From Ignavibacteriales bacterium (GTDB lineage: Bacteria; Bacteroidota; Ignavibacteria; UBA10030): a DNA stretch of 38,733 nt. The notes below the pieces were generated by a model. The model saw only the letters and a program-made list of their open reading frames with translations, was not told where the DNA came from and searched no databases. This document shows, piece after piece, positions 3,711-38,495 of this stretch (position 1 is its first letter; each line of letters begins with the position of its first letter). The DNA lies in contig JAPLFP010000305.1 in assembly GCA_026390585.1 (NCBI GenBank), positions 1 to 38,733 of the forward strand, written 5' to 3'. A program made the translations under genes and the position numbers.

Positions 3711-4307
3711 ATGTCATTTTCCGGCAATCATATTTTCCGTACAGTTTATCGCGCTCTTTTTGTCATCGTCATCGGCATGGCGACTGGCTTTCTTTTCTAT
3801 GGTTCTTTGATCTTTGTCCCAACAAAACCGCCTTTTCAGTTCACCCTTAGCAGTATCTCTGCAGGTCTCTTCTATGGTATCTCGAAGAGCTCGTCCTACC
3901 GAAATGCTCTTGCCGTAGCTCTCATCTGGAATGTTGTTAGCACACTCATTGCTGTCCACAATTGGTGGATGTTCATCGTTTTCTTAATCTACATCGCCGG
4001 CATTTCAGCCGCGGTCTATGTCTACATGATCGTCGTCAAGCGGCCTTTGTTCAATGGGATACTACAGCGCGTTGTTACGGCCTCACTCTTGACTGGAACG
4101 TTCAATGCTCTCGTCATATTGCTTCTGTCAGTACTCCAATTTACATTCAGCCACTTCCGCCTGAGTGCGGTCCCGAACGCCGCGGTGGACAATTTCCAAC
4201 TTGGCACTCTCATTGGACTTGGAGTTGGAGTGGGCATTGAGATCGCTGAGTATACTTTGAGACTGAAGTCCTTCCGGCGGTTCATCGAAGCGGCAAAAGC
4301 TCAGTAA
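3711..4307 (+). CDS. Hypothetical integral membrane protein
   Basis: A 198-residue protein that I do not recognise. The start at 3711 has GAAAGG about 10 bp upstream; an upstream in-frame ATG at 3657 lacks a ribosome site. Hydrophobic stretches suggest about five membrane helices (residues about 13-33, 38-55, 62-80, 85-105 and 120-145, with a further one near 160-180). The C-terminus ends in a basic helix (RLKSFRRFIEAAKAQ), probably cytoplasmic. No catalytic motif is visible. The next gene starts 21 bp downstream, so the two may be cotranscribed. Confidence 0.6.
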   Translation: MSFSGNHIFRTVYRALFVIVIGMATGFLFYGSLIFVPTKPPFQFTLSSISAGLFYGISKSSSYRNALAVALIWNVVSTLIAVHNWWMFIVFLIYIAGISAAVYVYMIVVKRPLFNGILQRVVTASLLTGTFNALVILLLSVLQFTFSHFRLSAVPNAAVDNFQLGTLIGLGVGVGIEIAEYTLRLKSFRRFIEAAKAQ

Positions 4308-4328
4308 CATTCTATAGGGAACGCGATA

Positions 4329-4740
4329 ATGTCCGCAACCGACAACAAGCTGCTCGTTCGTAAGTATATTGAGGAAGTGATCAACACCGGCAACGTCAGC
4401 GGAATCGAACAGTACATATCAACTAATTACATTAAAGTCTTCGAAGGAAAACGATACCCCAAGGGGCGTCGACGGAGCCAAAGAGCACATTCTCGAAGTT
4501 CGTCAGACCTATCCGGATTTAACCCTCACTGTTGAGCGTCAGATTGCTGAAGGTGAATACGTTGCCACATCCATCACGGCACAAGGCACTCATCGCGGCA
4601 CATGGCTTGGCATCAAACCGACAGAACAGATCGTTAGGTATACGGGAGTAAATATCGACAGAGTTGTTGATGGCCGGATCGTTGAGCATGGTGGTGCTGC
4701 GAATCTTCTTGGTCCGTTGCTTGAGATCGGCGCTGTTTGA
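4329..4740 (+). pseudogene. SnoaL-like (ester cyclase) protein, frameshifted
   Basis: The first frame encodes MSATDNKLLVRKYIEEVINT and about 26 more residues, the N-terminal helix and cone of the SnoaL/NTF2 fold. The continuation GAKEHILEVRQTYPDLTLTV and onward to GRIVEHGG...GPLLEIGAV is one frame away. Deleting one G from the GGGG run at 4463-4466 restores a single 136-residue reading frame of normal family length (KRYPKG-VDGAKEHI). Either a true +1 frameshift or a homopolymer error. SnoaL-like proteins of this subtype are small-molecule cyclases or hydrolases of unknown substrate. Confidence 0.8.
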
Positions 4741-30085: not shown

Positions 30086-31030
30086 TTACGCCTGCGTCAA
30101 CTTGTGGAATACCTCTTCAAGGCTGGTTGCCTTTTGCGACATCTCGAGGAGCACCCACTTCTCTGATACCGCCTGTTGGAACAGCGCCTCCCGGATGTCA
30201 ACACCGTGTGCGGAGAACACGGAGAACCTGTGAACATCGCCGTCAGCTGCTCCATACTCCACAGACTCAACCCCAGGGAGCGCTTTGATTTTCGGAAAGA
30301 TATCTGTCATCGCGTTCGGAACGGCCGCTTTGAGTTCGAGACTCACGGACTCAGAGCTGTGAAACTTCTGCTGCAGTTCGGTGGGTGTTCCGTCAGCAAC
30401 GATAGATCCTTCGTTGACAATGATCACGCGATCGCACGTCGCCTGCACTTCCGATAGAATATGTGTCGAAAGAACAACCGTTTTGGCTCTTCCGAGCTGC
30501 TTGATGAGGTTGCGGATTTCGACAATCTGATTCGGATCGAGGCCACTCGTCGGCTCGTCCAGGATCAGCACGTCCGGGTCATGAATCATAGCCTGCGCCA
30601 AACCAACGCGCTGGCGATATCCTTTCGACATCTCGCCGATATCCTTGTGTCGGACCTCCTTGAGACCACACACCTCGATCATTTGACCGAGTTGTTGTCT
30701 CATTCTCGCGGTGTCCAGGCCATGGAGTCGTGCCGCATATTCGAGATATTCCATGACATTCATGTCGAGATACAATGGATTCATTTCAGGCAGATATCCG
30801 ATTTTCCGTCTGACTTCGATCGAATGATCAGCGATAGAGCAACCGTCGACATCCACGGTTCCGGAACTCGGCGGCATGAAGCAGGTAATGATCTTCATCG
30901 TGGTGGTTTTGCCGGCTCCATTGGGACCCAGAAATCCAAGAATCTCACCCGTCTTCACGTCGAACGAGATATTGTTGATTGCTTTTTCCTGACCATAGAA
31001 TTTGGTCAGATTGCGGACTGTAATTGCCAT
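30086..31030 (-). CDS. gldA: GldA-like ABC transporter ATP-binding protein
   Basis: A 314-residue ATPase. Walker A is GPNGAGKTT (residues 35-43), the Q-loop region IGYLPEMNPLY, the signature MSKGYRQRVGLAQA, Walker B VLILDEPTSGLDPNQ and the switch His in LSTHILSE. After residue 215 a regulatory alpha/beta domain of about 100 residues ends in TSLEEVFHKLTQA, as in GldA/NatA-type ATPases. It leads the operon and is preceded by a good promoter. It drives the GldF-like permease. Confidence 0.9.
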   Translation of the reverse strand: MAITVRNLTKFYGQEKAINNISFDVKTGEILGFLGPNGAGKTTTMKIITCFMPPSSGTVDVDGCSIADHSIEVRRKIGYLPEMNPLYLDMNVMEYLEYAARLHGLDTARMRQQLGQMIEVCGLKEVRHKDIGEMSKGYRQRVGLAQAMIHDPDVLILDEPTSGLDPNQIVEIRNLIKQLGRAKTVVLSTHILSEVQATCDRVIIVNEGSIVADGTPTELQQKFHSSESVSLELKAAVPNAMTDIFPKIKALPGVESVEYGAADGDVHRFSVFSAHGVDIREALFQQAVSEKWVLLEMSQKATSLEEVFHKLTQA

Positions 31031-31197: not shown

Positions 31198-32676
31198 CTA
31201 ACGACTGCCAGCCAGGGATGCCAGCGGCCTGGCCATTTCTGTGGTAATTGCCAGCATCATTTGCGCACAATGGCGCAAAAGATCTGCATTAAGCTTGTCC
31301 GAAGTATCAAATGATGAATGATAATAGGGATCCATTCCATTCCATATTTCGAATGCGGTCCCTTCGGAAATATCCACAGCAGGATAGCCAGCCTCGATGA
31401 ATGATTCATGGTCACTCCCCCCCAGACCACCGATTTGACCGTCAACAAGAAAGTTGAGATTGTATCGTCTATTGTAGACGAGGGCGGAATCCATGAACGC
31501 AGCGCATTTGCTTCCGGCACTGATATAGATCCTGTTGATGTCACCCACGATGGGATACCCCAGCATATCACCGTTGACCGCCACCACGATATTCCGTCCT
31601 TTCGCTTTCGCATCCTGAGCGTAGTGGTAGCTCCCAACCAGTCCTATTTCTTCCGCGCCAACGGCAAGAAATCGAATTGTGTACGCAAATGTGTAGCGAC
31701 TGCAGATCCGTGCCGCTTCAAGGACCGCCGCCACCCCGCTCGCATTGTCGTTGGCACCGGGGACGCTGGGATTCACCGAATCGAAGTGCGCCACGATGAT
31801 GCATTCGGCGTTCGATGGACCAATTCACCTGAGTGTCCCGCAGATGTTTCTTGAAACGAAGCGGGACGCAGCCCCATCAGCAGATGTATACATCGGAGCC
31901 GGGGACTCGAACGGCATCGACTCGACCTCAAGACCGTACCGCTTCATCGCATTCGCGATATAGTCGGCTGCCGAATCGGCTTGCGGAGAATGGTTCACCC
32001 GCGTTCCAAATCGTTCCAACACATGGACATGGTGCATGAGGGAATCCGACGATATGGAGTGTATCATCTGTTCAACGTGTCTATCGGGCAACCCCGGGGG
32101 ACGCGCATTGATCAGTTCCGCTCTGTATTGTTGGGCCGGACTCTGAAGGAGCTGCACTCTGTAGCTGCGTTGTCTCAGTCGCGTGTAATCGCGTTTCGAT
32201 AGTTCAACGCGAGATGCCTTCGCGTTCCCGCTCAGAACCTTCAGAGTCGCTGCCACCTTTTGCGCGTCTTGAAGCTTTCGACCATCGATGAAGCCAATGC
32301 TCGCAACATAGATGTCATCATCCCCCCGCAGGTACTCGATCGCCGGGTAAAAGACATACAAAGCAACGAGGCCTGCGATCAAGTAGAGAGCAAGCTTTTT
32401 TCCCACCCGGGCGACAATACCTGGAAGCAAGTATCGCTCCAAAACAATCCCGATCACAGTAAACACAACAGCTCCGACGAAGATAGTCCAACGGAGACCT
32501 CGTGCTCGCACCGACACGAGCTGCATCATCCTGACCATGAAAATCCAGACACCGATGATATCCAGGAGGACGAAGGCAGCAACGATCTTCCGCAAGCTTA
32601 CATTGCCGCTCTCAGAGCGGTTGGTAGAAGACGGAGATTCGTCAAGTGGTTGTTGCCTATCCCTGTCGTCCATCAT
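31198..32676 (-). pseudogene. M28 metallo-aminopeptidase interrupted by in-frame TGA
   Basis: The frame opens at 32676, reaches TGA at 31825-31827 (codon 284) and continues in the same frame to 31198, 492 sense codons in all. The first part has three membrane helices (about 27-47, 58-78 and 92-112), then the M28 cap (HVHVLERFGTRVNHSPQADSAADYI). The second part holds the two-zinc core: IIVAHFDS, GANDNASG, VGAEEIGLVGS, VNGDMLGY and DPYYHSSFDTSDKLN. All ligands lie beyond the stop, so the truncated product would be inactive. A distal product could arise only by reinitiation or read-through. Flanking alignment gives no sign of a frameshift. Confidence 0.85.
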
Positions 32677-32827: not shown

Positions 32828-33898
32828 CTAGAACAGATTGATTTGGGGAGTAGTGGTGCGGCGGAACAACGAAGTTGAAAGTGTGAGTTTCGACTCATTG
32901 AGGCTGAGCCGTTTACAGCTGGTTTGAAACAGCTGCTCGATTGTTTCGGCAAGTTGTCCTTCTCCATTGAGACGCTTACCAAAATCGGCGCAGGTCAGTT
33001 TACCGTTGCGCACCTCACGAATGCGATTGAGAATGGTTGATGCCCGATCGGGCAACTCGCGCTTGAGCCAATCGACAAAGAGATCTTTGACGCTGTTCGG
33101 AAGACGGACGATGGCGTACCCCGCATGGCGAGCGCCACATCGTGAAGATGCCTCAAGAATGGAAGGAATCTCCACATCATTCAATCCGGGAATGATCGGG
33201 CAGGCATTGATCGCAACTGGAATACCTTGCTTCGTCAGGGTGTTGATCGTTTCCAGACGCTTCGCGGGTATAGACGTTCGGGGTTCCATCTTCCTGATGA
33301 GATCGTGATTGAGTGACGTGATGCTGATCGTCACGGTGACGAGATTCATGGAGGCGAGTTCTCTGAGGATGTCGGCATCACGTTGGACGAGGGCATTTTT
33401 CGTGACAATCGAAACCGGATTCCGGTGTTCCAGAAAGACCTCGAGGCATCGACGCGTGATCTGCAGTTTCTTTTCTATCGGCTGGTAACAATCCGTGTCG
33501 CCCGATAACATAACGGTCTGCGGTTGCCATGAAGAACGGCTGAGTTGTTCGTCAAGCAAAACCGCTGCAGCCGGCTTCACCATGATCTTTGTCTCGAAAT
33601 CAAGTCCGGAGGAAAAGCCGAGATACTCGTGAGTTGGACGCGCATAGCAATAGATGCAGCCGTGCTCGCATCCACGATATGGATTGACGCTGTAGGTAAA
33701 GCCGATGTCGGGACTGTCGTTCTTTGCGAGGATCGAACGGCTCTGGTCGACGTAGAATTTCGTCAGAATGCTTCGCCCCTCTTCAGGGTCTTCGAAGTAC
33801 TCTGAGAAGCCTTCTGGGGCTTTTTCGAGCGCCAGTGTTTCAAACCTGTTCTTCGGATTGAACGATGCCCCGCGACCTTTAACCGTTGCGCGGGTCAT
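32828..33898 (-). CDS. PA0069-family radical SAM protein with C-terminal clamp-like motif
   Basis: A 356-residue radical SAM enzyme related to SplB-like proteins (PA0069 family). The cluster motif is C77-x3-C81-x2-C84 (NPYRGCEHGCIYCYARPTHEY), followed by VMLSGDTDCYQPIEKK, SIVTKNALVQRD, ISITSL and INACPIIPGLND for SAM and barrel strands. The reaction is unknown; spore photoproduct lyase relatives repair DNA. The last five residues are QINLF, a QxxLF beta-clamp-binding type motif. Its ATG overlaps the polymerase stop by 4 bp (ATGA), so the two proteins are probably made together. The gap 32677-32827 has nothing notable. Confidence 0.87.
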   Translation of the reverse strand: MTRATVKGRGASFNPKNRFETLALEKAPEGFSEYFEDPEEGRSILTKFYVDQSRSILAKNDSPDIGFTYSVNPYRGCEHGCIYCYARPTHEYLGFSSGLDFETKIMVKPAAAVLLDEQLSRSSWQPQTVMLSGDTDCYQPIEKKLQITRRCLEVFLEHRNPVSIVTKNALVQRDADILRELASMNLVTVTISITSLNHDLIRKMEPRTSIPAKRLETINTLTKQGIPVAINACPIIPGLNDVEIPSILEASSRCGARHAGYAIVRLPNSVKDLFVDWLKRELPDRASTILNRIREVRNGKLTCADFGKRLNGEGQLAETIEQLFQTSCKRLSLNESKLTLSTSLFRRTTTPQINLF

Positions 33899-36237
33899 CG
33901 CTCCCTCTCCTGCTCGGTGCGCATGCGGAACAGCGGAATTTGCCTTGCCGATTCCGATGAGGGCGCGTGAAGCTGGCGTGTTCGCCGGGTGGATTTTTTG
34001 GGGGCAGGGGGTGTCAATCCAAGTTCGTCCTTGAGCGACTGGACATCATATCCAAGCGGAAAGAGCAGCGTCTCGGCGGCTTTGAGTGTGAGCTCTGTGT
34101 ACTGCTCGATATCGTACCCGTCTTCAAACGCATACAGAGCAAGCGGTTTTGCTTTCTCGGGTTTTTTCTTTCCCGATTGATCGATGATAATGAACTCAAT
34201 CGACTCTCCGGCCGCAAGCGACACACCCATCTCCTGAACCAGCTTTGCCACCACAGCACTGATGCTGTTGTTAGTATACTCGTCCGCTTCTTTGGTGATG
34301 TGGCGGCGAAGAACGAGGTCCATCGGGTTTGCCTTTCCGGTGCGCAACAACGCAACGGCACCGCGCACAATCTCCAACAGGTCGGGGGCCAGTGCGCGTA
34401 CTTCTTCAACGTTGTGCGCCCCCGACATCCGGTCGAGCATCGTTATCTGCATGGTTTTGATAAACTTCGGCGTATCACGCCGGCGGGCCTCGATGCCGCG
34501 GATCTTGATGTCGCCGTGCTGGTACCACCCAACATACCGGTTCGCCGTGGTAATATCGGGATCCATTTTCGAGGCCGGGAACAAAATCCAGTTGTAAATT
34601 CCTTCCAGAGAGATGTCGATACCAACCCGCCGTGAAATATCGCGGGCGAGCGTTTCGTAGTCGCTTTCGGTCGCCCCCTCCTTCTTCAACCACACGCAGT
34701 CGATGATCGCATGAAGCAGGTGAAACCCGTGCTCTTCCGCAACCTCTTTCGCCATCAGGATGGCATCGCGGGAGAACGCGTTAACCGATTCATGTGCTTC
34801 GATCTTGCCAAACCGTGCGTTTTTGTAGCCGAGATATCCGAAGCAGCTCACGAGCATCCACTTCAGCGCATTCTGCCGGCGGTCGTACTTGCGAAACAGA
34901 ATTTCGTCTTTTCCTTTATACTTTTTTTTCATCGCTTTATAGTACGCCCGCTTCTTCACAACGGCCCGCAGCGTTGCCGGCACAATGCCTTCGCGTTTCT
35001 CGCAGATCGAATATCCAAGTTCCGGCACGCTCTTGTTCGTGCAGCACCGGCAGTTCACTGTTTCCGGCGAGACATTATGCGTTACCATGATGGTCGGATA
35101 CATCGACACGAAATCGAGCTCGGCAATTTCTTCGTGATACCCCAGGGGCGGATTGAAGATGAGGCCGCCGCGATCGGCGAGCAGGAGTGTTGCAGCTGAT
35201 TTGAAATCTTCCGGTTCACGCTTCTTGGAAGGGATCAGAATGCCTTTCTGGTATGCCCACGACAACTGAAGCGACGACATGGACGTGCCGATGCTCGCGC
35301 GCCCCTGCCGTTGTCCGCACATTTGCGTGAGCCGCGCCATCTCAAAGAGACCGTCAAGATCCGCCTCTGCCACCGTCATGGAGTTGGTGGCATCGATGTG
35401 CCACCGGCCGGCGAGCTCAAACGCACCGTCTTTATGAACGATCTTTCCGTACTGAAAGAAGCTCGATTCTTTCGTTGTTACGTAGTTTGCTTGCTCGTCG
35501 CGGTTCAGGAGAAGCGGGACCTTGTACCGCTGTGCCATCGCCGTTAGTTTCGGCATCAGAACCGCGTCCCCGTAATCCGTCACAATAATATCCGGGTCGC
35601 AGCGATGCAGGTGCCAGTTGAGCGCTTCCAGGACGTCTTGCGGAGTTTCCTGCTCAAGAGCATACGTGCGGTCATCATACGTCACTTCGAGCTGAAGATG
35701 CTTCTGGTATTTCGGCGGTACGAAATCGTTCGCATTCCTGAGCAGCAGAATCGAAAACGGGGGGAGTTGATAGTCTGTCGCCTCACGGGAATCGTTCAGC
35801 GTCCAACCGACCAGGGCGCCTTGATCATCGAACTCATAGTCTCCAAACGCGAGCGGAAAGAGCTGTGTTGCATACAGGAAAAGCTGTGCAACGAGAATAT
35901 CGGAATTGAAGAACGCAAAATGTGGGAAGAACCGCTCGTAGTACCACACCACCTCCCGAAACCGCATGGGATCGTGGACATGCACTTCGAGCACGTCCAG
36001 CGGGTCACCGGAATAGATCTCCGTCTTTACTGTTCGCGTGATCGTCACGGGAACGGGACATTGAGCGGCAAGATTCTCCGCACGCCGCGCATCGGACGGA
36101 CTGAGATGCAGAAAGAACGAGGGCGTAAACTTGTAAAAGCGCCGATGCTTGTCGCCATTCTGGTCGATCAGCCAGAGTGTGATGCCCTGGGGAGAAGGAT
36201 AACAGTCAAACAACCAGCCGGTGAGCGTGTGAGCCAT
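33895..36237 (-). CDS. Divergent family-B DNA polymerase (PolB2-like)
   Basis: A 780-residue polymerase. Residues 1-170 form the N-terminal domain and 175-330 a 3'-5' exonuclease-like domain that has lost its acidic motifs: the DxE of Exo I is not found (LQLEVTYDD), and Exo II reads IIVTDYGDAVLMPKL with Leu for the Asp. The palm has motif A ELDFVSMYP (D375), a Cys group C396, C398, C399, C412, motif B ALKWMLVSCFGYLGY with K459, and motif C IIDCVWLK where D513 aligns with the second Asp of DTDS while the first is Ile. QIPLF (766-770) near the C-terminus matches the beta-clamp motif also found at the end of E. coli Pol II. AAGGACCAGG precedes the ATG. Confidence 0.85.
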   Translation of the reverse strand: MAHTLTGWLFDCYPSPQGITLWLIDQNGDKHRRFYKFTPSFFLHLSPSDARRAENLAAQCPVPVTITRTVKTEIYSGDPLDVLEVHVHDPMRFREVVWYYERFFPHFAFFNSDILVAQLFLYATQLFPLAFGDYEFDDQGALVGWTLNDSREATDYQLPPFSILLLRNANDFVPPKYQKHLQLEVTYDDRTYALEQETPQDVLEALNWHLHRCDPDIIVTDYGDAVLMPKLTAMAQRYKVPLLLNRDEQANYVTTKESSFFQYGKIVHKDGAFELAGRWHIDATNSMTVAEADLDGLFEMARLTQMCGQRQGRASIGTSMSSLQLSWAYQKGILIPSKKREPEDFKSAATLLLADRGGLIFNPPLGYHEEIAELDFVSMYPTIMVTHNVSPETVNCRCCTNKSVPELGYSICEKREGIVPATLRAVVKKRAYYKAMKKKYKGKDEILFRKYDRRQNALKWMLVSCFGYLGYKNARFGKIEAHESVNAFSRDAILMAKEVAEEHGFHLLHAIIDCVWLKKEGATESDYETLARDISRRVGIDISLEGIYNWILFPASKMDPDITTANRYVGWYQHGDIKIRGIEARRRDTPKFIKTMQITMLDRMSGAHNVEEVRALAPDLLEIVRGAVALLRTGKANPMDLVLRRHITKEADEYTNNSISAVVAKLVQEMGVSLAAGESIEFIIIDQSGKKKPEKAKPLALYAFEDGYDIEQYTELTLKAAETLLFPLGYDVQSLKDELGLTPPAPKKSTRRTRQLHAPSSESARQIPLFRMRTEQERER

Positions 36238-36250
36238 GATCCTGGTCCTT

Positions 36251-36274
36251 AAGTGTTGGCCGTTGCCAACACTT
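36251..36274 (-). promoter_or_regulatory. Hairpin just ahead of the polymerase ribosome site
   Basis: AAGTGTTGGC (36251-36260) and GCCAACACTT (36265-36274) form a perfect 10-bp stem with a 4-base loop. In the minus-strand mRNA it directly precedes AAGGACCAGG and the polymerase ATG, and begins at the stop codon of the small upstream gene. There is no T-tract, so it is not a classical terminator. It may set the level of polymerase translation or mark an mRNA processing site. Confidence 0.6.
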
Positions 36275-36546
36275 CACGAGTGTTGATGGAGTTGCTCTTC
36301 CAGCCGGACGATCCGATCCTGCATCTGTTTGATCAACTTCCGCTGCTCGACAGCAATGGATACCATGATGCTTTCAAACGGGATGGTCCGCATCGCATAG
36401 AAATTCTCCGCGAGGTGAAGCCTCGCCGCGCGGAACACATCGTCGAACACTTCCTGATCTTCTTTGCGAAGTCCCCGCCGGTATTTCGACCAACTTGCCA
36501 GCTCGCTGTCGATGATATTGGTAAATGTCGGGACCGTGCGCCCCAT
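36274..36546 (-). CDS. Small MGRT protein with C-terminal helix, upstream of PolB
   Basis: A 90-residue protein. The N-terminus MGRTVPTFTNIIDSELASW then SKYRRGLRKEDQEVFDDVF is followed by a helix-rich middle and a heptad-like C-terminal helix (VEQRKLIKQMQDRIVRLEEQL). It resembles short proteins beginning MGRTNPT that I recall from haloarchaeal genomes (DUF8156-like). If that holds, a polymerase-linked partner has been shared between Archaea and Bacteria. No catalytic residues are apparent. A role as a polymerase accessory or oligomerisation subunit is inferred from position only: 36 bp before the polymerase and 47 bp after the VOC gene. Confidence 0.65.
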   Translation of the reverse strand: MGRTVPTFTNIIDSELASWSKYRRGLRKEDQEVFDDVFRAARLHLAENFYAMRTIPFESIMVSIAVEQRKLIKQMQDRIVRLEEQLHQHS

Positions 36547-36593
36547 ACTCGATCGCTCCTTTCAATTCCACCGCTGAGGAAGTTTTTTCGTGA

Positions 36594-36971
36594 TTACTGC
36601 TCGTCTTCAGCAAATGTCAGGAGAAAGCCGTTGTTGTCTTTGATCGAGAATTCCGTTGCGCCATAGAACGTTTTCTCAAGCCCCTGAATGACCGTGACCT
36701 TGTCTTTTACACTGTCAAACAATGCTCTGATGTTTTTGAGTTTGATGTACAGCAAGAGTGAGCCGCCCCCCGTTCTGCTCACATCAGGCAGGGTGTCACC
36801 AAGACTGGCAAACGTTTGAAACATAAAGGAAACGCTGCCGCATGTCATCATCGCCCACACAAAGTCCCCGGCCTCGGGAACGTTCATCACAAGGTTGAAG
36901 CCGAGCGCTTTATAGAATTCAATAGTTTCGTTGATGTCTTTGACGAACAGGTTTGGTGACAGGCTTTCCAT
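36594..36971 (-). CDS. VOC (glyoxalase/bleomycin-resistance-like) protein
   Basis: A 125-residue protein of one double beta-alpha-beta-beta-beta VOC unit: LSPNLFVKDINETIEFYKALGF, then FVWAMMTCGSVSFMFQ, then GGSLLLYIKLKNIRALFDSV, ending TEFSIKDNNGFLLTFAED. ATG 36971 has GGAGGA 7 bp upstream; the longer frame to 37049 is not supported. Several expected metal-binding His are missing, so it may bind a ligand without metal or sequester a drug. It lies inside the RecA-like/PolB operon, and its first 53 bp overlap the end of the RecA-like frame. Confidence 0.8.
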   Translation of the reverse strand: MESLSPNLFVKDINETIEFYKALGFNLVMNVPEAGDFVWAMMTCGSVSFMFQTFASLGDTLPDVSRTGGGSLLLYIKLKNIRALFDSVKDKVTVIQGLEKTFYGATEFSIKDNNGFLLTFAEDEQ

Positions 36972-37737
36972 CGGAGCTTCCTCCATTCTTTGATCGTGCG
37001 ACGTAGGGTTTGACATCGTGTTGAAGAGAATGTTGTTGGGATATTCCACTCGACTCCAATATCAATGATGGCTTGTTGTTCTGGTCCGCCGTCAGCCGGT
37101 AAATGCTGTCCATCCCCGTCTTGAGTGTCGCAAACAACTGATTGCGTTCTTTCGGCAGGACGTTCCATTCAGTGCAAGCCAGCAGTACGGAAACTCCTCC
37201 CCGCTTGACCTCCTGCAGCGCCACGAGCAGCCGTTGCAAAATCTGCTGCACTTCGCGGAAGGAAGCCTGTTCGTCGTAGAATGTATCGAGCAAACCGAAA
37301 ATCATAGCGACGTTGGAGCCGATAGACTCGAGAAACAGCGGCAAGCGATTGCCGACAGCCTGCTCCATCTGGTAGCACGTGAAACCGCGGGAGATGTAAA
37401 TCCGGTGAAGAAATTCATCCGGGTCGATCCGCCGTTCACGGGCGAAGCGCGACAGAAGATGCACGTTGAACCGGTTGCAGCCGTCAACCACAGCAACAGA
37501 TGTTCCCTGCGTCATTGCGTACGCTGCCATCCTGAGTGAAAGCTGATAAATAAGATGATCGCCGTACAAAAGACAGAGCTTCCCCGGAGGTGCAACGAAC
37601 GATTGCACCAGCGACTGAGAGGAAACTGGACCTGGAAGATGTTCCGCCTCGGGTAGAAGTCCGACATCTACCCCGAATTTCCTCTCGAAGATGTCGGACT
37701 TCTTTCTTATATCGGACATCTCATGAGATAATTTCAT
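36919..37737 (-). CDS. RecA/Rad51-like protein with degenerate Walker A
   Basis: A 272-residue protein (if the ATG at 37737 is used; ATG 37719 is equally possible). The RecA-fold region has LLPEAEHLPGPVSSQSLVQS, a strand and turn LCLLYGDHLIYQLSLRMAAY where a P-loop is expected but with no GK[ST], then SVAVVDGCNRFNVH and ISRGFTCYQMEQAV. A Walker-B-like strand (NVAMIFGLLDTFYDE) and LLACTEWNVLPKERNQLF follow. It probably does not bind ATP normally. Position suggests a role like ImuA, a RecA-like partner of a damage polymerase. The last 45 residues are basic and low-complexity and overlap the VOC gene, so the native stop may have been lost. Confidence 0.65.
   Translation of the reverse strand: MKLSHEMSDIRKKSDIFERKFGVDVGLLPEAEHLPGPVSSQSLVQSFVAPPGKLCLLYGDHLIYQLSLRMAAYAMTQGTSVAVVDGCNRFNVHLLSRFARERRIDPDEFLHRIYISRGFTCYQMEQAVGNRLPLFLESIGSNVAMIFGLLDTFYDEQASFREVQQILQRLLVALQEVKRGGVSVLLACTEWNVLPKERNQLFATLKTGMDSIYRLTADQNNKPSLILESSGISQQHSLQHDVKPYVARSKNGGSSDGKPVTKPVRQRHQRNY
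37655..37717. promoter_or_regulatory. Candidate operator: 15-bp inverted repeat and three TCGGAC words
   Basis: AGAAGTCCGACATCT (37655-37669) and AGATGTCGGACTTCT (37689-37703) form a perfect inverted repeat around 19 bp. TCGGAC occurs at 37694-37699 and 37712-37717 on the plus strand and at 37659-37664 on the minus strand. The copy at 37712 lies next to a GATAAT (37727-37732) that could be the -10 of the SRAP gene. On the other strand the repeat falls in the first codons of the RecA-like frame. It looks like a shared regulatory site for the divergent genes. Confidence 0.5.
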
Positions 37738-37772
37738 ATTTTTCAATCATCACGTTCTCCGGAGGTTCTTCT

Positions 37773-38495
37773 ATGTGCGGCCGCTACGCTCTTATCGACG
37801 GCAAAAGGGTTCTCGTCTCCTTCACCGCTCTTAACAAAACGAAGCCCACAGAGCAGGCATTCCAGGAGCTTCCCCGGTACAACGCTTCACCCATGCAACG
37901 ACTCCCTGTCTTCGCCATCCGGCATGACGAACTCATCGCCGAATCGATGCAATGGTGGCTAATCCCCCACTGGTCGAAAGACGGAAAGCCGGGCTTTTCT
38001 TCCTTCAACGCCAAAGCCGAGACGCTGGACCAGAGCAAACTGTTCGCACCATACTTCAAAGGCAGCCGCTGCCTTATCCCCGCTGATGCGTTCTACGAAT
38101 GGCAGCGGGTGATAACGACACAAGAGGTTCGCGGCGGGCAAAAAAAGGTCGAAGAGAAACACCCCATGTGCGTTCGGATGAACGACGACGCCCCGTTTTT
38201 GTTTGCCGGATTGTTCTCGATCTGGAAGGATGCAGAGGGGAACGAGCGCCCCACCTTCACCATCATCACCACAGAACCAAACGAGCTGATGGCCCCCATC
38301 CATCGCCGCATGCCCGTCGTGTTGCCCGAACAGCACATCGAGCAATGGCTCGACCGGTCGTATAAAGACACCGACCATTTGAAAAAACTCCTCGTCCCCT
38401 ACCCCGCCAAAAAAATGAAAGCCTACCGCGTCTCTTCCCTCGTCAGCAATCCCCGCAACGACGCGGCAGAATGCATGCGGCCGGTGGAAGGCTAA
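37773..38495 (+). CDS. SRAP-domain abasic-site protein (YedK/HMCES type)
   Basis: A 240-residue SOS response-associated peptidase family protein. After Met removal the catalytic C2 (MCGRYAL) would form a thiazolidine crosslink to abasic sites in single-stranded DNA, shielding them from error-prone bypass. Other active residues are N37 (RYNASP), E109 (PADAFYEW) and H177 (APIHRRMP). GGAGG lies 7 bp before ATG 37773. The gene is divergent from the RecA-like/PolB2 unit, with the inverted repeat between them, so shared control by DNA damage is likely. Length is normal. Confidence 0.93.
   Translation: MCGRYALIDGKRVLVSFTALNKTKPTEQAFQELPRYNASPMQRLPVFAIRHDELIAESMQWWLIPHWSKDGKPGFSSFNAKAETLDQSKLFAPYFKGSRCLIPADAFYEWQRVITTQEVRGGQKKVEEKHPMCVRMNDDAPFLFAGLFSIWKDAEGNERPTFTIITTEPNELMAPIHRRMPVVLPEQHIEQWLDRSYKDTDHLKKLLVPYPAKKMKAYRVSSLVSNPRNDAAECMRPVEG

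Follow-up and report, generated by a model that had tools for sequence, protein, structure and literature searches.

The locus at positions 32828-38495 of the window (the whole stretch of 38,733 nucleotides analyzed here, from an Ignavibacteriales bacterium) probably encodes a damage-inducible PolB2-iRadA-PPB2 translesion complex that belongs to an SOS-type regulon run by an S24 repressor, and the adjoining radical SAM protein (rSAM) of the PA0069 family most likely performs direct reversal of a base lesion. In archaea, PolB2 is a damage-induced extender in translesion synthesis (TLS). Judging by its sequence features, the core of the locus is the bacterial PolB2 mutasome that has already been published (Timinskas, Timinskas, and Venclovas 2025, PMC11791011). 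What looks new is the joining of an rSAM, similar to spore photoproduct lyase (SPL) and ending in a clamp-like tail, to this mutasome in one bacterial family and, in relatives, the apparent placement of mutasome and rSAM under the same LexA-type operator. The best explanation is a regulon that comprises the repressor, DUF72, the mutasome and, in the window's family, the PA0069 rSAM. This reading draws on gene content, motifs, folds, the operator and operator distribution, from which we infer that repressor and operator pair, what rSAM acts on, that the clamp is bound, and that operators beyond the window edge regulate the locus in its own genome. The bacterial mutasome is known only from prediction; with an operator and a repressor defined, its control by damage can be tested directly in this class.

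Upon DNA damage, RecA filaments would trigger self-cleavage of the S24 repressor, a CI/LexA-like protein predicted to bind ACGACA-N4-TGTCGT, and the cleavage would release expression of the mutasome. PolB2, with its decayed proofreading domain and altered active site, would be held by iRadA and the PPB2 trimer, and the complex, tethered to the sliding clamp via the PolB2 tail, would extend past lesions, with SRAP expected to guard abasic sites. The rSAM, also at the clamp, may reverse by SPL-like chemistry a lesion for which bypass would otherwise be required, so that bypass and reversal would be switched on together.

Gene content and comparison with the published mutasome

All six open reading frames of the preliminary description are present in the window, and its family identifications hold. 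On the minus strand, the order of transcription is iRadA, VOC, a 90-residue MGRT protein (PPB2), PolB2, and rSAM; the SRAP gene is divergent. The features are as follows:

37773-38495, plus strand: abasic-site protein SRAP of the HMCES/YedK family, transcribed away from iRadA (PF02586, E 2e-62)
36919-37746, minus strand: iRadA, predicted inactive RadA/Rad51 paralogue and PolB2 mutasome subunit (RadA profile and model matches)
36594-36971, minus strand: VOC/glyoxalase-fold protein, an insertion within the mutasome operon (PF00903, E 1.5e-8)
36274-36546, minus strand: PPB2 (arCOG07300-type), a small helical partner protein that bears an MGRT arm at its N terminus (MGRT start, identity to homologues)
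33895-36237, minus strand: PolB2, predicted translesion polymerase (PF00136, E 2.9e-33)
34699-34707, minus strand: PolB2 active-site motif IID, residues 511-513, replacing DxD (alignments)
33928-33942, minus strand: beta-clamp-like motif QIPLF near the PolB2 C terminus (sequence)
32828-33898, minus strand: PA0069-family radical SAM protein (rSAM) with an SPL-like fold (NF033668, 480 bits)
33647-33670, minus strand: rSAM CxxxCxxC [4Fe-4S]/SAM motif, C77, C81, and C84 (invariant in the rSAM alignment)
32831-32845, minus strand: C-terminal beta-clamp-like motif QINLF of rSAM (count of Qxx[LMI]F tails)

The polymerase belongs to the B family (its profile matches B-family structures with E 1.6e-56), and none of the six genes matches a C- or Y-family polymerase. 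Its orthologues share 62-94% identity, many of them with tails of the QIPLF/QELPLF type. In the alignment, IID faces the DTD triplet of 5mdn, so that the first Asp of DxD is substituted, and the exonuclease motif is lost, the DIE region of 5mdn being aligned to a stretch around RNAN. PPB2 begins with MGRTVPTFT, in which GRT is invariant in the alignment; its homologues (51-96% identity) also start with MGRT and are placed between iRadA and PolB2. The iRadA protein has no Pfam match; a profile search finds RadA (E 1.3e-5), its AlphaFold model matches RadA/DMC1 (E 8.7e-11), and the Walker A motif GxxxxGK[TS] was not found in the iRadA alignment, so it appears to have a RadA fold devoid of an intact ATPase site, as in the mutasome subunit. 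No clamp motif was found in its tail. The iRadA start codon is uncertain, the conserved part beginning near VSSQSLVQSF. The variable N-terminal coding part contains a perfect 14-bp inverted repeat, AGAAGTCCGACATCT...AGATGTCGGACTTCT (37656-37702), which was rejected as an operator, being missing from L001 and other relatives; the 14-mer has one further copy in the genome, in apparently coding sequence.

The three-gene core iRadA-PPB2-PolB2 is intact in nearly all of the 27 related loci whose sequence extends far enough (these come from named genomes, the nearest record being an Ignavibacteriae MAG with 94% PolB2 identity), and this arrangement is recurrent and hence not due to chance. In L027, PolB2 lies ∼5.5 kb away from iRadA-PPB2. 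Neighbor clustering gives a fuller layout for the window's family, namely S24 repressor, DUF72, SRAP, iRadA-PPB2-PolB2, rSAM, and an ABC-transporter block. In the same phylum outside the window's class, no PolB2 match at E 1e-40 was found among 395 sampled genomes. The plasmid PolB2 matches listed are from halophilic archaea at ∼32% identity and were set aside as uninformative about the operon.

In the parts of PMC11791011 drawn on here, bacterial PolB2 operons have the single gene order iRadA-PPB2-PolB2, into which other genes are interspersed in some cases; PPB2 carries an N-terminal MGRT arm, PolB2 has a substituted DxD motif (in S. islandicus, the same substitution as the IID of the window) and a decayed exonuclease domain, clamp motifs occur in PolB2 or iRadA but rarely in both, and the neighborhoods are enriched in lexA, SRAP, and DUF72. 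The locus shares the three genes and their bacterial order (VOC is interposed, as "interspersed" allows), the MGRT arm, the IID motif, the decayed exonuclease, the clamp motif in PolB2 but not in iRadA, and the SRAP and DUF72 neighbors, with a LexA-like repressor nearby in relatives. Each testable sequence feature agrees, so the "parallel mutasome" centered on PolB2 that the preliminary description put forward appears to be correct but had already been proposed. Compared with the system as given there, the window differs in the rSAM gene that overlaps the operon end and in the VOC gene that separates iRadA from PPB2. In addition, relatives show a defined operator, ACGACA-N4-TGTCGT; the term "radical SAM" does not appear in the main text of that paper.

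The ImuA-ImuB-DnaE2 system, to which the locus had been likened, is likewise an SOS-controlled pairing of a RecA-like accessory protein and a mutagenic polymerase. The locus has neither DnaE2 nor ImuB, its polymerase is of another family, PPB2 has no counterpart, and the analogue drawn in the cited parts of PMC11791011 is Pol V.

The expectation that all six families would be conserved as a neighborhood failed: VOC is confined to one genus, SRAP to a subset of the loci, and rSAM lies beside PolB2 in a single family. The VOC gene probably spans 36594-36971, given that the longer frame runs into iRadA. Among the related loci, it is present only in the window, L001, L002, and L089, all of one genus; it is a genus-level insertion in the mutasome operon and was rejected as a mutasome component for this reason. 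The SRAP gene starts at ATG 37773, not at GTG 37590 of the longer frame, and is divergent at the same place in L001, L004, L005, L007, L012, and L089; no operator of its own was found. Between SRAP and iRadA, a MazF-like toxin gene with an antitoxin-like gene, or a remnant of these, is seen in L089 (10330-10960) and L004 (960-1400).

The operator and the S24 repressor

The palindrome ACGACA-N4-TGTCGT was found by looking for dyads upstream of the genes of the locus. It is located upstream of iRadA in families f1, f2, and f5 (in f4, with two mismatches), upstream of the split-off PolB2 genes (L008, L009, and L027), and upstream of the divergent S24/DUF72 pair. With no more than one mismatch and an A/T spacer, it is present in 16 of 33 iRadA upstream regions, compared to a mean of 0.005 and a maximum of 1 in shuffled sequences. 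In family f3, the operator is absent from all five iRadA regions, and no S24 orthologue was detected at the threshold used. Exact sites with an A/T spacer number 11 in 12 genomes of the window's family, and every one is found at a repressor, DUF72, iRadA, PolB2, or rSAM gene; the eleventh stands at the head of a DUF5131-S24-iRadA-PPB2 cluster. In that cluster (L159 of genome G126, positions 3719-4471 and 4492), DUF5131 comes first after the exact operator and is followed by S24, iRadA, and PPB2; the DUF5131 protein has a CxxxxxxCxxC motif and may be a further cluster-binding enzyme of this regulon.

The S24 repressor consists of an HTH_3 (CI-type HTH) domain and a Peptidase_S24 domain in L001 and L006 and retains the G-G/A-G cleavage site and the Ser/Lys pair, as does the protein from the window's own genome. 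Its co-location and co-occurrence with ACGACA-N4-TGTCGT suggest that it pairs with this operator. Non-canonical (CI-like) LexA proteins run the SOS response of Bacteroidetes through the motifs GGA-N5-TCC and CTAA-N5-TTAG, and their regulons include the radical SAM protein SplB and SRAP (PMC8565304). The regulon described here resembles these in having a repressor with an XRE/CI-type HTH and an S24 domain that would control a TLS polymerase; however, the operator is neither of the two motifs, and the polymerase is PolB2 rather than DinB/UmuC. Ignavibacteria are not named in PMC8565304.

The window contig ends just beyond SRAP. Judging by synteny with L001, the sequence beyond its right edge continues on contig C146, which carries DUF72 and an S24 gene (C146, 28539-29186), 96% identical to that of L001, with two operator-like sites between them that have two mismatches each. 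The window itself shows no prominent operator: sites with three or fewer mismatches number 16, versus 18.3 expected, and none was found between the SRAP and iRadA starts, which are only some 30-40 bp apart. The closest relatives (L001, L004, L005, L007, and L089), which have the divergent SRAP, likewise lack an operator at iRadA. Switch control of the iRadA operon of the window is thus something we infer from neighbors, and the genus would use either an unseen promoter or transcripts that come from the direction of DUF72 and read through SRAP, which lies antisense.

Position and regulation of the rSAM gene

In the window, the rSAM gene is followed by an ABC-transporter block (30086-31030 and onward). 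Directly after the rSAM gene lies a peptidase-like gene (31198-32676) split over two frames of 198 and 283 amino acids; the single 771-amino-acid frame in L089 (1869-4181) points to a frameshift and a probable pseudogene. A 484-amino-acid transposase-like open reading frame is located at the left contig end (87-1541).

Among 98 genomes of the order, PolB2 is found in 74, rSAM in 48, and both in 36. The two genes are less than 6 kb apart in 9 of the 13 genomes of the window's family that have both but in none of the 23 elsewhere in the order; in a tenth case (G224), a contig end probably interrupts the linkage. All linked rSAMs fall into one part of the rSAM tree, and the adjacency looks like a single event followed by inheritance; confined to one family and of apparently one origin, it led us to reject rSAM as a conserved PolB2 partner on the strength of neighborhood alone. 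Co-occurrence of the two genes was likewise rejected as evidence, since the effect seen in the class (p 4e-4, with phylogeny ignored) vanishes within the order (odds ratio, 0.95).

These data bring up the possibility that the PolB2 mutasome is real and the rSAM is a mere syntenic neighbor from the ABC-transporter block that shares no function with it. The single-origin linkage in one family and the lack of co-occurrence in the order fit such an arrangement, as does the behavior of the block itself: rSAM keeps its position there in G196 (L101), which has no PolB2, and in G184 (L090), where PolB2 lies elsewhere, and in L002, which has PolB2 but no rSAM, the block still adjoins. Adjacency alone is weak evidence, as rSAM stays beside an unrelated transporter block when PolB2 is gone. 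However, the start codon of rSAM and the stop codon of PolB2 overlap as ATGA in the window, L001, and L020, the SPL-like fold and clamp-like tail described below point to work on DNA, and the mutasome operator is present at rSAM genes of the family that are unlinked. The latter holds for 3 of 3 informative genomes (L090, L094, and L101), i.e., genomes of the family with an unlinked rSAM and covered upstream DNA, and for none of 28 rSAM loci outside the family, a split that simple counting, ignoring relatedness, puts at 1 in 4495. The three operator-bearing genes sit on three separate branches of the rSAM tree. For a link between rSAM and the mutasome, the shared operator appears to be stronger evidence than position, and the neighbor-only explanation looks rather unlikely.

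The rSAM genes of L005 and L013, 1.7 and 5.1 kb from PolB2, have no operator of their own. In two sister genomes, an endonuclease IV-type gene (PF01261) lies between PolB2 and rSAM (L013, 11686-12573). In four genera of family f4 (L149-L152; G136, G146, G203, and G204), rSAM is ∼3 kb from the same S24 repressor and convergent, and PolB2, where present, is on a different contig; this proximity was not used as evidence, given the convergent orientation and the intervening two-component pair and YchF-type GTPase.

Fold, C-terminal tail, and candidate function of rSAM

The rSAM protein matches NF033668 over its full length with a score well above the cut-off of 360 bits, which places it in the PA0069 family, but scores only 11.8 bits against the SPL equivalog TIGR04070, for which the cut-off is 400. 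Its structural model (pLDDT 71, with low values near the cluster loop) has spore photoproduct lyase (4fhg/4fhc) as the best match, with E 1.9e-8 over most of the chain. The radical-SAM fold is thus shared with SPL, from which the protein differs in its low identity (∼15%), an additional invariant Cys137, and the C-terminal clamp-like tail. The motif Qxx[LMI]F is found within the last 15 residues of 34 of the 48 family members, compared to 3 of 272 background open reading frames. Such tails extend to Alphaproteobacteria, Gammaproteobacteria, and Rv2578c-type Actinobacteria, genomes without PolB2 among them, so the tail marks the enzyme family and not membership in the mutasome. The suggestion that a clamp-binding radical SAM enzyme is a new component of the mutasome thus survives in part: the C terminus is clamp-like and the operator is shared in relatives, but the tail also occurs where PolB2 is absent.

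The rSAM could instead act on RNA, a cofactor, or a peptide, the LF-type tail not being a clamp motif at all. Radical-SAM folds serve many substrates, the protein also matches NifB and SkfB, more weakly, in fold and in sequence, and the low SPL equivalog score would fit such a role. We regard this as unlikely, given that SPL is the best fold match over most of the chain, that the Qxx[LMI]F tail is conserved across phyla, and that SplB-type genes are known SOS targets (PMC8565304 and PMC3765255). A physical mutasome subunit, for example one that feeds lesions to the complex or modifies PolB2/iRadA at the clamp, is suggested by the operon position and by the clamp-like motifs of both PolB2 (QIPLF) and rSAM (QINLF) but is highly improbable, as the tail is family-wide and includes genomes without PolB2, most PolB2 mutasomes of the order have no neighboring rSAM, and the AlphaFold-predicted complex models in the parts of PMC11791011 drawn on here need just PolB2, iRadA, and PPB2.

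Returning to lesion reversal as the preferred function, an intriguing if tentative possibility is that the PA0069/Rv2578c rSAMs are widespread direct-reversal DNA repair enzymes tethered to the sliding clamp, one of which was recruited into the PolB2 translesion regulon in the window's family. If so, lesion reversal and lesion bypass would reach the same clamp under one SOS switch. In the literature searched, no paper joining a radical SAM protein with a clamp-binding motif and no functional paper on PA0069 or Rv2578c was found. The clamp-like tail, which occurs in Proteobacteria, Actinobacteria, and the window's class, provides a hypothesis of function (clamp-tethered lesion reversal) for a family listed in NCBIfam as a "hypothetical equivalog." On a Sphingomonas plasmid (L109), a VOC-family gene is located divergently beside the PA0069 radical SAM gene, possibly by coincidence.
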